Assembly (NCBI RefSeq): GCF_003703395.1
Contig: NZ_RDQN01000002.1
Coordinates: 124,001-188,000 of the forward strand
DNA length: 64,000 nt
Origin: Pseudoxanthomonas spadix
GTDB taxonomy: Bacteria > Pseudomonadota > Gammaproteobacteria > Xanthomonadales > Xanthomonadaceae
Reading direction: 5' to 3'
Part shown: piece after piece, positions 45,460-51,918 of the stretch
How the letters are laid out: every line of letters starts with the position of its first letter
Position numbering within the stretch: the stretch's first letter is position 1
The notes under the pieces: model-generated
Told to the model about the DNA's origin: nothing
The model's input: the letters and a program-made list of their open reading frames with translations, nothing else
The model's database searches: none
Made by a program: the position numbers and the translations under genes

Positions 45460-47108
45460 ACCCGTTCGCCGCCCATCGCCGCGGCATTGCGCTGACCCTG
45501 GCGCTGCTCAGCCTGACCCTGCTGGCCGGTACCGCGCTGCTGGGGGTCGCCGGGCACTTTCTCACCGCCGCAGCGCTGGCCGGGACGGGCGCGCTCGGGT
45601 TCAACCTGTTCGGCCCCTCGGCCGGCATCCGCGGCCTGACCTTCGTGCGCATCCTCTCGCGCTACGGCGAAAAACTGGTCGGCCACGATGTCACCCTGCG
45701 GATCGGCCGCGACCTGCGGCTGGACTTCTTCCGCCGCGCGCTGCCGTTGGCACCGCTGGGCCTGGGACGGCTGCGCACCGGGGATTTGCTCAGCCAGCTG
45801 GTCGCCGACATCGAACGGGTCGAAGGCGGGCTGGTGCGCGCGTTCGGCCCGCTGCTGGCGTTGGGCCTGCTGGTGCTGGTGGCCTGCGCGGTCGCCGCGA
45901 TCGCCTTGCCGCTGGCCGGGCTGGTGCTGCTGGTGACCTGCCTGCTGCTGGGCGTGGTGCTGCCATGGGCGGCTGCGCGTGGCGCGCGCGCGCACGAGGC
46001 TGCCCGCGAACAGGCCCGCGCCACCGTGCGCGCCGACGTGCTCGATGCGGTGCAGGGCGCCACCGACCTGGCCGCGCTGCAGGCCGGCGACGGCTGGCTG
46101 GTCCGTATCGAGGCGGCCAGCCAGACGCTGGCGCGCTGCGAACGCCGGCGCAAGCAACGACTGGCCCTGGCTACCTTCGGCCACGGCGCGATCACGGCGA
46201 TCGCGCTGACCGCGATGTTGGGGCTTGTCCTGGCGGCCGCATCGACCGGTGCGGTGTCGGCGCCGGCCGCGGCGGGCCTGTTCTTCATGACCGTGGCCAC
46301 GCTGGAGGCCTGCGCCGGCGCGGCCCTGGCCTGGCGCGAACTGCATGCCGCGCGCGGCGCCTGGCAGCGCCTGCAGGGCACCGTCAGCGCCGCCCCGCCG
46401 GTGCGCGATCCGGCAACGCCCAGCCCCGTGCCCGCGCAGGGCAGCCTGGAACTGGTGCAGGTCGGTTTCCACTGGGCCGGCAGCAGCCAGCCGGTGCTGG
46501 ACGGTGCCAGCCTGCGCATCGCCCCCGGCCAGCGCATCGCCATCACCGGCGACAGCGGCGCCGGCAAGAGCTCGCTGCTGGCGCTGCTGCTGCGCCTGTG
46601 CGATCCGGATGCCGGCAGCGTGCGCTACGCCGGCATCGACCTGCGCTGCTTCGCCCAGGACGACTGGCATCGCCAGATCGCCTGGCTGCCGCAGGAGGCG
46701 CCGGTGTTCGCCGGCAGCGTGCGCGACAACCTGCGCCTGGGCGATGCGCAGGCCAATGACATGCGCCTGTGGCAGGTGCTCGAACAGGTGCGGCTGGACG
46801 CGCTGGTGCGCGGCCTGCCCGGCCAGCTCGACGCCTGGATCGGCGAACACGGCCGCACGCTCTCCGCCGGCCAGGCCCGCCGCATCGCCCTGGCCCGCGC
46901 CCTGCTGCGCGATGCCCCGATCCTGCTGCTGGACGAACCCACCGAAGGCCTGGACGTGGACACCGCCCAGGCACTGCTGGCCGACCTGGCCGAGGCCAGC
47001 CAGGGCCGCACCGTCATCGTGATCACCCATGACGCACTGCCCGTCGGCTGGGCCCAGGCCACCTGGCATCTGGCCGATGGTCGCCTGCAGGAAGCGATCA
47101 GTGCCTAG
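45456..47108 (+). CDS. cydC: CydC, ABC exporter subunit for cytochrome bd assembly
   Basis: A 550-residue ABC half-transporter starting at GTG 45456 (NPFAAHRRGIALTLALL), overlapping cydD by 4 bases. Six membrane segments occupy residues about 10-300, and LTFVRILSRYGEKLVGHDVT is a typical CydC motif. The ATPase domain has GDSGAGKSSLL, LSAGQARRIALARALL and LLLDEPTEGLD. It forms the heterodimer with CydD. Length is standard. Confidence 0.95.
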   Translation: MNPFAAHRRGIALTLALLSLTLLAGTALLGVAGHFLTAAALAGTGALGFNLFGPSAGIRGLTFVRILSRYGEKLVGHDVTLRIGRDLRLDFFRRALPLAPLGLGRLRTGDLLSQLVADIERVEGGLVRAFGPLLALGLLVLVACAVAAIALPLAGLVLLVTCLLLGVVLPWAAARGARAHEAAREQARATVRADVLDAVQGATDLAALQAGDGWLVRIEAASQTLARCERRRKQRLALATFGHGAITAIALTAMLGLVLAAASTGAVSAPAAAGLFFMTVATLEACAGAALAWRELHAARGAWQRLQGTVSAAPPVRDPATPSPVPAQGSLELVQVGFHWAGSSQPVLDGASLRIAPGQRIAITGDSGAGKSSLLALLLRLCDPDAGSVRYAGIDLRCFAQDDWHRQIAWLPQEAPVFAGSVRDNLRLGDAQANDMRLWQVLEQVRLDALVRGLPGQLDAWIGEHGRTLSAGQARRIALARALLRDAPILLLDEPTEGLDVDTAQALLADLAEASQGRTVIVITHDALPVGWAQATWHLADGRLQEAISA

Positions 47109-49874: not shown

Positions 49875-50240
49875 ATGGATATCTTCAAGGTCTTCAGCAT
49901 CGAAGCCGCGCACCGGCTGCCCAACGTGCCCGATGGGCACAAGTGCGCCCGCCTGCACGGACACTCGTTCCGTATCGAGATCCACCTGTCTGGCCCGCTG
50001 GATCCGCACACTGGCTGGGTGATGGACTTCGCCGACGTCAAGGCAGCCTTCAGGCCGATCTTCCAGCGCCTGGACCACCACTACCTCAACGACATCCAGG
50101 GCCTGGACAACCCCACCAGCGAGCGCATCGCCGAGTGGATCTGGGATCACCTCAAGCCCGCGCTGCCGCTGCTGAGCCAGGTGGTGGTGCACGAGACCTG
50201 CACCGCCGGCAGCCGCTACCGCGGGCCTGCCGCAGGCTGA
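49875..50240 (+). CDS. queD: QueD-type 6-carboxy-tetrahydropterin synthase
   Basis: A 121-residue enzyme of queuosine precursor synthesis. The zinc-binding histidines are in AAHRLPN and RLHGHSF. The active-site Cys is in [10 protein letters not shown], and [16 protein letters not shown] and [14 protein letters not shown] follow. The protein is typical in length. It starts 60 bases after rhlE. A role in pterin metabolism is a minor alternative. Confidence 0.94.
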
Positions 50241-50329: not shown

Positions 50330-50358
50330 TTGCATTGCCACAAAACCGGGGGTATGCT
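50330..50358 (+). promoter_or_regulatory. Promoter-like element of the candidate small RNA
   Basis: TTGCAT (50330-50335) and TATGCT (50353-50358) are separated by exactly 17 bases and match the sigma-70 elements at 4 of 6 each. Transcription would begin about 50365, just before the structured region. Confidence 0.5.
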
Positions 50359-50364
50359 GCGTCG

Positions 50365-50511
50365 CAACATCAACCCGTAATGCTGGTTTCGCGGAATTGA
50401 TGACACAGCACATCGCGCCGGCGCCTTGCGCCACGCTCCGTCGTTTGTGTGGGTCCCTCCCCCCACACAAATCTGGCCCGACAGGTCCCTCCCCCTGTCG
50501 GGCTTTTTTTT
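50365..50511 (+). ncRNA. Candidate small RNA with twin hairpins bearing identical C-rich loops
   Basis: Two adjacent stems of unrelated sequence carry the same 8-base loop, TCCCTCCC. The first pairs TTTGTGTGGG with CCCACACAAA (50444-50471). The second pairs GCCCGACAGG with CCTGTCGGGC (50476-50503) and is followed by eight T, a strong terminator. Upstream is a promoter-like element and about 80 bases of leader. No ORF of note lies inside. The C-rich loops could pair with ribosome-binding sites (GGGAGG), as in the Xanthomonas small RNA sX13. It lies between queD and the fRMsr gene. Confidence 0.7.
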
Positions 50512-50574
50512 GTCAAACGCTGCCGGCGCCGCCCGCCCCGGCGCCGGCCCCGCATGTGCACGTAGAATCGGCCC

Positions 50575-51060
50575 ATGTCATTTGCCAGCCAGACCCTTTC
50601 CGGGACCAAGTCCGAGCAGTATGCGCAGCTGCTGGAACAGGCGCGCGGCCTGATGCAAGGGGAAACCGACCGCATCGCCAACGCGGCCAACCTCTCGGCG
50701 CTGCTGTTCAACGCCCTGCCGGACTGCAACTGGGCCGGATTCTATTTCTTTGATGGAACCGAGCTGGTGGTCGGCCCGTTCCAGGGCTTGCCGGCCTGCG
50801 TGCGGATCAAGCTGGACAAGGGGGTCTGCGGCGCCGCAGCCAGTACCCGCCAGACCCAGCGCGTGCATGACGTGGAGGCCTTCCCCGGCCACATCGCCTG
50901 CGACGCGGCTTCGCGCTCGGAACTGGTGGTGCCATTGGTGAAGGACGGCGCGCTGATCGGCGTGCTGGATATCGACAGTCCGCGGGTCGGTCGCTTCGAC
51001 GAGGACGACCAGCGCGGCATCGAAGCCATTGCCGCGGCCTGGGTCCAGGCCCTGCAATGA
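50575..51060 (+). CDS. msrC: Free methionine-(R)-sulfoxide reductase (GAF-domain, fRMsr)
   Basis: A 161-residue GAF-fold enzyme that reduces free methionine-R-sulfoxide. The family signatures DCNWAGFYF, VCGAAASTRQTQ and HIACDAASRSELVVP carry the catalytic cysteines (three in all in the usual positions). It ends FDEDDQRGIEAIAAAWVQ. It overlaps the next gene by 4 bases (ATGA). It protects against oxidised methionine. Confident by family signatures. Confidence 0.94.
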   Translation: MSFASQTLSGTKSEQYAQLLEQARGLMQGETDRIANAANLSALLFNALPDCNWAGFYFFDGTELVVGPFQGLPACVRIKLDKGVCGAAASTRQTQRVHDVEAFPGHIACDAASRSELVVPLVKDGALIGVLDIDSPRVGRFDEDDQRGIEAIAAAWVQALQ

Positions 51061-51512: not shown

Positions 51513-51561
51513 GCGCAGCGGTCACGGCCCAGCGCCTGATCGCGTACACTCTGCGCCGCTT

Positions 51562-51763
51562 TCAGGTGACCCCACGCGCAGCTGCACGCGCCGCGGGTTG
51601 AAACGGGAAGCCGGTGAGCCTTGAACCAGGCGATTCCGGCGCTGCCCCCGCAACGGTAAGCGAGTCATGCCAACGCATCGGCCACTGTGCGCGACACGCA
51701 CGGGAAGGCGCGGCGGCGGAAGTGCCGGCACTTCCAACTCGCAAGCCCGGAGACCGGCCTGGA
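51562..51763 (+). promoter_or_regulatory. Cobalamin (AdoCbl) riboswitch upstream of btuB
   Basis: The conserved riboswitch blocks occur in order: GAAACGGGAAGCCGGTGAG, TCCGGCGCTGCCCCCGCAAC (the B12 box, followed by GGTAAGCG), GCCACTGTGCGC, GGGAAGGCGCGGCGG and CAAGCCCGGAGACCGGCCTG. It sits 156 bases upstream of btuB, which it should repress at translation or transcription when B12 is abundant. TACACT at 51544-51549 is a possible -10. Confident by the B12 box and order. Confidence 0.93.
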
Positions 51764-51918
51764 GCGCGGATTCGCCACGAATCCATCACCGGTTGCGATG
51801 CGGAGGGCGTCGCGCGTGCCGCGCCGCGCGTGTTTCGCGTGCGCTGTCCGCCTGCATTACCTCCGTCCGCGGCTTCCTTGCCTTGCATGCGCGCGGGGCG
51901 CGCGACGGAGTCTTGCCC

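Follow-up and report, generated by a model that had tools for sequence, protein, structure and literature searches.

The window, by which we mean the whole stretch of 64,000 nucleotides that was analysed, is part of contig C12 of a 3.37-Mb genome of Pseudoxanthomonas spadix. It contains a promoter-like block followed by two hairpins, and the twin-hairpin part is referred to here as the element. The rhlE-like DEAD-box helicase gene and queD are located upstream of the element, and the GAF-domain gene, a TfoX_C gene and a gene for a TonB-dependent receptor are located downstream. The features of the locus are as follows.

49875..50240, + strand: QueD-like 6-carboxytetrahydropterin synthase (PF01242, 5.3e-36; TIGR03367 above cut-off), the conserved upstream neighbour
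50330..50369, + strand: phasin-type promoter block, with –35 TTGCAT at 50330-50335, a spacer of 17 nt and –10 TATGCT at 50353-50358
50331-50342: PhaR-box-like 12-mer, site 1, TGCATTGCCACA, with two mismatches to TGCRNYGCASMA, overlying the –35 hexamer
50358-50369: PhaR-box-like 12-mer, site 2, TGCGTCGCAACA, with one mismatch to TGCRNYGCASMA, at the start region
50365..50442, + strand: leader of the predicted sRNA, its start being assumed near 50365 and its length and sequence varying within the clade
50443..50472, + strand: hairpin 1, 11 bp, with stem arms 50443-50453 and 50462-50472 and loop TCCCTCCC at 50454-50461
50475..50512, + strand: hairpin 2 (50475-50504) and T run, an intrinsic terminator
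50575..51060, + strand: GAF-domain protein (PF13185, 7.9e-13), the downstream neighbour, conserved in Pseudoxanthomonas and Xanthomonas

The GAF-domain protein, designated fRMsr here, gave no match to NCBIfam. A cobalamin riboswitch (51548-51776, 94.3 bits) lies upstream of the TonB-dependent receptor gene and was also detected at four of six related loci scanned.

Both direct reading and folding of the sequence yielded tandem hairpins that share one loop and of which the second is a terminator, as an initial, sequence-only reading of the window had described; the coordinates given for the hairpins in that reading, 50444-50471 and 50476-50503, were correct to 1 nt. In hairpin 2, stem arms of 11 bp at 50475-50485 and 50494-50504 enclose the loop TCCCTCCC at 50486-50493 and are followed by the T run, and the fold also contained a GGCGC/GCGCC mini-hairpin in the leader at 50420-50432. 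The energy of the predicted transcript fold was –60.7 kcal/mol (z = –5.08), and none of 200 shuffles gave an equally low value. As a word, the loop octamer is unremarkable, because its count of two in the window, both copies being in the element, compares with 2.16 expected. A scan of the plus strand for neighbouring hairpins with the same loop (stem of at least 9, distance within 30 nt, identical loop of at least 7 letters) detected this single pair in the window and none in 200 dinucleotide shuffles. The sequence TTGCAT-N17-TATGCT, which had been noted as promoter-like, is also present, and its end is 85 nt ahead of the stem of hairpin 1.

A DNA search of 61 genomes yielded matches in nine, including the window's own. 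Strong matches to the locus were obtained for five genomes (G004, G007, G009, G010 and G017), those in G002 and G020 were confined to the promoter part, and that in G033 was an unrelated-looking piece. In G002 and G020, the promoter precedes an ORF of the phasin family, and the 3'UTR of this ORF has at its end a hairpin with a C-rich loop and a terminator; the G002 protein matched Pfam Phasin_2 (3.7e-13), with TIGR01841 below its cut-off. The usual gene order in the genus is crp, rhlE, queD, promoter, phasin, bioD, the GAF gene, tfoX and btuB, some of these members falling outside the stretch that was retrieved for the comparison. Among 33 loci of the genus, the phasin gene and bioD were both absent from those of six genomes alone, with the promoter and the flanking genes retained. 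These six genomes, termed sRNA-type here, are the window's own (G000) and the five with strong DNA matches. In P. composti (G015), the phasin is diverged and bioD is missing, and in G005 and G034 none of the listed genes was seen below the phasin gene within the retrieved stretch.

At 72 of the best 80 named queD loci, the retrieved stretch contains a phasin match, which in a few cases lies 1.4-2.9 kb from queD. Among the eight phasin-less loci, L093 and L094 alone, both of the sRNA type, have kept the promoter. Phasin_2 was detected in 32 of 38 genomes of the genus, the exceptions being G004, G007, G009, G010, G017 and G006, and the single Phasin_2 gene in the window's genome encodes a different phasin and is on another contig. 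In a tree of four neighbour proteins with 54 tips, the six sRNA-type genomes were monophyletic (1.0) and sister to P. composti (0.995); every tip outside the sRNA-type group carries a phasin, deeper branches being weak (0.3, 0.65). The simplest reading of this pattern would be a single loss of the phasin ORF, with bioD having gone earlier. The element shares its promoter block and its place below queD with the phasin gene of close relatives.

The hairpins are nearly identical among the six sRNA-type genomes. Pairwise divergence over 56 hairpin positions was 0.6%, attributable to a single hairpin 1 base that differs in G000 alone, with corresponding values of 26% for fourfold sites of queD and 15% for the promoter block; fourfold values for the GAF gene were left out of the comparison, its frame having been mis-assigned for G004 and G017. 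The leader differed by 31% plus long gaps, and the distance from the promoter block to the hairpins ranged from 39 to 74 nt. Given this difference between the hairpins and the fourfold sites, and given that the phasin ORF is gone, the RNA is under constraint in the absence of the protein, which we regard as the strongest argument for a function. A passive relic, that is, a promoter and terminator left from the deleted phasin gene and retained solely to terminate read-through from queD, would share some of these properties, in that the locus is an ORF deletion and hairpin 2 a good terminator. Termination, however, requires neither the loop sequence nor hairpin 1, and both hairpins, loops included, are nearly unchanged where the fourfold sites have diverged; the promoter has also been retained. 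We consider such a relic quite improbable.

It is highly improbable that the leader and hairpin region encodes a small protein. ATG frames are present in G000, G007 and G009, but the transcripts of G010, G004 and G017 contain no ATG, and a common ATG frame in the transcript was not found across the six sRNA-type genomes. Frames that begin with TTG or GTG inside hairpin 1 are open in all six, an agreement that is trivial because the hairpins are the same in these genomes, and the stems covary between relatives. With a promoter-like block of its own, a terminator and no shared ATG frame, the element has the appearance of a stand-alone sRNA gene.

In the phasin 3'UTR of Xanthomonas, both hairpins occur with TCCCTCCC loops on other, covarying stems, those of X. 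arboricola (L172) being GCATGGG and CCCGACAGA. We aligned 30 selected sequences from Pseudoxanthomonas, Xanthomonas and the sRNA clade, trimmed to the hairpins and with L102 and L101 left out. In this alignment, 97.6% of cells were paired, compared with 32-52% in slid controls, and change on both sides was apparent at 7 of 17 pairs. Paired cells, cells with both sides altered and the covariation score all exceeded the values of every one of the 500 column shuffles. The other two of the five measures were not outstanding: for the count of pairs altered on both sides, 71 of the 500 shuffles scored as high, and for further pair types 476 did. The motif CCCTCCC is present in hairpin 1 of all 30 sequences and in the terminator loop, and thus in both loops, of 22, the terminator loop of the other eight being without it. 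The element therefore matches phasin 3'UTRs in its covarying stems and its C-rich loops. The description of fixed loops on changing stems holds for the comparison with phasin-type relatives but not for the inside of the sRNA-type clade, where the stems are nearly invariant.

A covariance search in the family, which the sequence-only reading had proposed, was performed with a model designated R1 and gave matches in 72 of 119 genomes and 37 of 54 genera (E ≤ 0.01). On the best 80 named queD loci, the same model gave 59 matches at 58 loci (E ≤ 0.05). We inspected 30 of the 96 R1 matches listed, nearly all of them the best of the 96, and found that all were near queD and that 27 were in phasin 3'UTRs, the three phasin-less ones being those of the window, G112 and G138. 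More distant genera often have CU-rich motifs such as CTCTCTCC, and at loci L016-L045 and L098-L170, outside Xanthomonas and Pseudoxanthomonas, CTCTCTC-type motifs often replace CCCTCCC in the phasin 3'UTR. The conserved hairpins, the promoter block and the covarying stems together support, at the level of sequence, the earlier suggestion of a conserved stand-alone RNA gene. That suggestion missed the origin of the gene: in all likelihood, the RNA is a phasin 3'UTR from an mRNA that has lost its ORF, and the promoter is that of the phasin gene, with PhaR-box-like repeats. We hold it to be very likely that the RNA is derived from the phasin 3'UTR and is still functional.

The two other phasin-less loci differ in their state of preservation. 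In G112, a member of another genus, the gap between the end of a phasin-like promoter and two hairpins with TCCCTCCC loops is 30 nt, which leaves no room for a phasin, and Phasin_2 was not matched anywhere in this genome. Our promoter expression misses this locus, given that its spacer is one base shorter. In a tree of two proteins from 44 loci, from which six loci with one protein missing were left out and which was poorly resolved elsewhere, G112 fell into a group (0.97) together with Xanthomonas loci, the Pseudoxanthomonas sRNA clade lying outside this group. The G138 locus (L201) has a decayed promoter remnant, approximately 300 nt without a phasin and a damaged hairpin 1 loop, and a phasin was not found in the genome. 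The element can thus decay after loss of the ORF, and the decaying G138 copy is what a passive relic would also look like.

The PhaR consensus TGCRNYGCASMA was described for Bradyrhizobium (PMC6201568) and is applied here to Pseudoxanthomonas. The two PhaR-box-like 12-mers of the promoter block start 27 nt apart. Site 1 has no mismatches in five of the six sRNA-type genomes and two in the window, and each of the six has a single mismatch at site 2. Among 108 promoter blocks, with some genomes represented twice, at most one mismatch was found at site 1 in 107 and at site 2 in 106. Pairs of PhaR-box-like sites at the same spacing, with at most two mismatches per box, numbered three in the window as against two in ten mononucleotide shuffles together; the two further pairs are on the minus strand of the window near 46081 and 6332 and are possibly due to chance. 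A gene of the PhaR family (PF07879) is present in all 38 Pseudoxanthomonas genomes. On these grounds, control of the promoter by PhaR seems somewhat probable. The PHA synthase family PF07167 was above cut-off in the window's genome alone among 14 genomes tested and was not matched in the other five sRNA-type genomes, so that PhaR, if acting in those five, may report another signal. The window's genome, alone among the six, has a PF07167 PHA synthase gene and a second, different phasin gene on one contig (G000:C3:27425 and 35538).

The promoter block was also sought more widely. With up to three mismatches, it was found in 135 of 395 genomes of the family and in 22 of 54 genera. Of 30 promoter loci (L016-L045), 25 fit the promoter expression, and all 25 have an ORF that was identified by eye as a phasin; the five loci that did not fit were dropped, and because of them part of the 135 pattern-bearing genomes must be put down to chance. 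Among the best 80 named queD loci, the block is present at 53 and was not found by the promoter expression at 27, which include seven from Xanthomonas (L120, L124, L126, L132, L137, L164 and L172); Xanthomonas locus L156 has the block. Given these 27 loci, PhaR control does not appear to be general to the element.

The loop TCCCTCCC is the exact complement of GGGAGGGA, which bears out the earlier claim that the loops are complementary to purine-rich ribosome sites. The pattern GGGAGGGA-N2-9-ATG occurs at 93 sites in the six sRNA-type genomes, compared with nine for the reversed GGGAGGGA pattern. After exclusion of two sites that are antisense of the RNA itself and of one that was double-counted, 90 were analysed. 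Of these, 75 head an ORF of at least 50 amino acids, some of which are surely spurious, and 36 of the 75 ORFs belong to nine ortholog clusters, each with members from at least three genomes. The control motif GGAGAGAG gave 32 sites and 26 ORFs, with three of the latter in one ortholog cluster. The GGGAGGGA clusters, named by eye, are as follows.

Six of six genomes: DUF962/Mpo1-like protein
Five genomes: secreted dehydroquinate-dehydratase-like protein
Four genomes each: aromatic-acid MFS-type transporter; 67-amino-acid protein
Three genomes each: solute-binding protein; DcaP-like porin; two other outer-membrane-like proteins; TonB-type receptor

The window's genome is represented in two of the nine clusters, that of DUF962 and, with a truncated frame of 171 amino acids, that of the transporter. 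A search of the window for GGGAGG-N8-ATG, a single spacing, gave no match. In G009 (L226/L220) and G007 (L249/L236), the genes for the aromatic-acid MFS-type transporter and the DcaP-like porin, both with GGGAGGGA sites, are approximately 2.7 kb apart.

That the loops pair with ribosome sites is, as judged from these matches, the explanation that we favour. Conserved GGGAGGGA sites may instead reflect translation strength, GGGAGGGA being a strong Shine-Dalgarno sequence. Before ATG, GGGAGGGA outnumbered GGAGAGAG in the six sRNA-type genomes (93:32), in four phasin-type Pseudoxanthomonas genomes (72:42) and in two g26 genomes (34:21), and it was outnumbered in nine genomes from genera chosen for CU-type loops (45:64), in two g36 genomes (20:32) and in two g48 genomes (22:33). 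A loop-to-ribosome-site switch between genera was considered as proof of co-adaptation and set aside, the picture being mixed: g36 and g48, or their relatives, carry CCCTCCC twice. Fixed loops on changing stems would equally fit recognition by a protein, and the RNA has no long unpaired region for pairing outside the variable leader; the C-rich loops might thus bind an RNA-binding protein or titrate G-rich RNA rather than ribosome sites. We regard this alternative as unlikely, given that the loops are exactly complementary to GGGAGGGA sites, which orthologous genes repeatedly have ahead of them. RsmA/CsrA proteins recognise GGA in a loop, and the absence of GGA from both loops makes a sponge for these proteins, in particular, unlikely.

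At gathering threshold, Rfam matches in the window were limited to the cobalamin riboswitch and tRNA, with nothing at the element, and the element was likewise not matched at six related loci (L172, L164, L120, L132, L119 and L093). Relaxation to E ≤ 1 gave nine weak matches for the element. Among these, ar7 (RF02342; 26 versus a gathering score of 60 bits), ar14 (RF02344; 23.4 versus 58.8), CcsR1 (RF02791; 15.8 versus 65.3) and Yfr1 (RF01116; 21.7 versus 38) were rejected as being below the gathering score. All four RNAs have C/U-rich, anti-Shine-Dalgarno-like loops on stable stems, and their similarity to the window RNA is weak and concerns the C/U-rich loops.

The sRNA sX13 is a structured RNA from the same bacterial family with three stem-loops and apical C-rich loops, and its repressive effect, which does not depend on Hfq, is exerted at G-rich motifs that mRNAs carry close to the translation start (PMC3771888). 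Its homologues, including those of Pseudoxanthomonas, are described as being always downstream of polA (PMC3771888). These likenesses in loops, family and G-rich targets would fit a duplication of an sX13 family member to a new locus. The loops of sX13, however, contain CCCC or CCCCC (4C/5C; PMC3771888) and not UCCCUCCC, whereas those of the window element are TCCCTCCC; and sX13 is at polA with no link to a phasin, whereas the window RNA is between queD and the GAF gene and is syntenic with phasin 3'UTRs. The window's genome also has a separate candidate, L203 (G000:C2, 3011-3082, minus strand), with a weak R1 match and a C-rich loop, directly downstream of the gene encoding DNA polymerase I. 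L203 is probably the sX13 homologue of this genome, in agreement with the earlier statement that the window locus is a different one, and a duplicated sX13 is a most improbable source of the window RNA. The latter may act like sX13 through its loops, but its locus and its loop sequence both place it outside the sX13 family.

Among the regulatory RNAs that mRNAs carry in their 3' portion are RsmU, from the comEA 3'UTR of Xanthomonas (PMC7694677), and MalH, from the 3' end of malG in E. coli (PMC8081044). Both arise from a coding transcript, whereas for the window RNA the ORF is gone and the promoter of the mRNA abuts the 3'UTR element. In Sinorhizobium, PhaR/AniA has been described as a repressor of the sRNA MmgR, which is tied to storage metabolism (PMC8401924); PhaR control of the window RNA is a prediction. 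MmgR represses phasins, and the parts of that account used here describe no derivation of MmgR from a phasin gene (PMC8401924). We found no precedent in the open-access literature searched for an sRNA from a phasin 3'UTR or for one formed by ORF loss. What is new is thus a C-rich-loop sRNA, itself of a known kind, derived from a phasin mRNA by loss of the ORF.

Taken as a whole, the element is probably a stand-alone sRNA gene of approximately 110-150 nt that stems from a phasin gene without the frame but with promoter and 3'UTR, that is controlled by PhaR and whose loops act on ribosome sites. The phasin gene would have lost its reading frame while promoter and 3'UTR stayed, and the phasin promoter with its two PhaR-box-like sites would now directly drive transcription of the twin-hairpin RNA. 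PhaR would repress this promoter until carbon-storage status gives relief. Once the promoter is relieved, the two CCCUCCC loops would pair with ribosome sites of the GGGAGGGA type, and genes for transport, outer-membrane and aromatic-acid functions would be blocked from being translated, a negative effect being the predicted direction of regulation. A broader reading, to which we give about even chances, is that a bacterial mRNA has been converted to an sRNA by frame loss at least twice independently, in the Pseudoxanthomonas clade and in one other lineage, with the protein discarded and the promoter and RNA module kept, and that the conserved phasin 3'UTR module of Lysobacteraceae, with its anti-Shine-Dalgarno loops, acts in trans and couples carbon storage to nutrient uptake.

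These observations bear on the origin of new sRNA genes. At one syntenic position, some relatives have the ORF and others do not, and this natural deletion separates the function of the protein from that of the RNA within a single transcript. The phasin mRNAs of Xanthomonas, Pseudoxanthomonas and their relatives are predicted to carry a regulatory RNA in the 3'UTR, which may connect storage metabolism, through PhaR, with post-transcriptional control. Second R1 matches were also observed in G170 and G070, at L204 3035-3094 (45.4 bits) and L205 2995-3055 (42.9 bits); both are on contigs other than the phasin-linked one and consist of a CCCTCCC-loop hairpin and a terminator.
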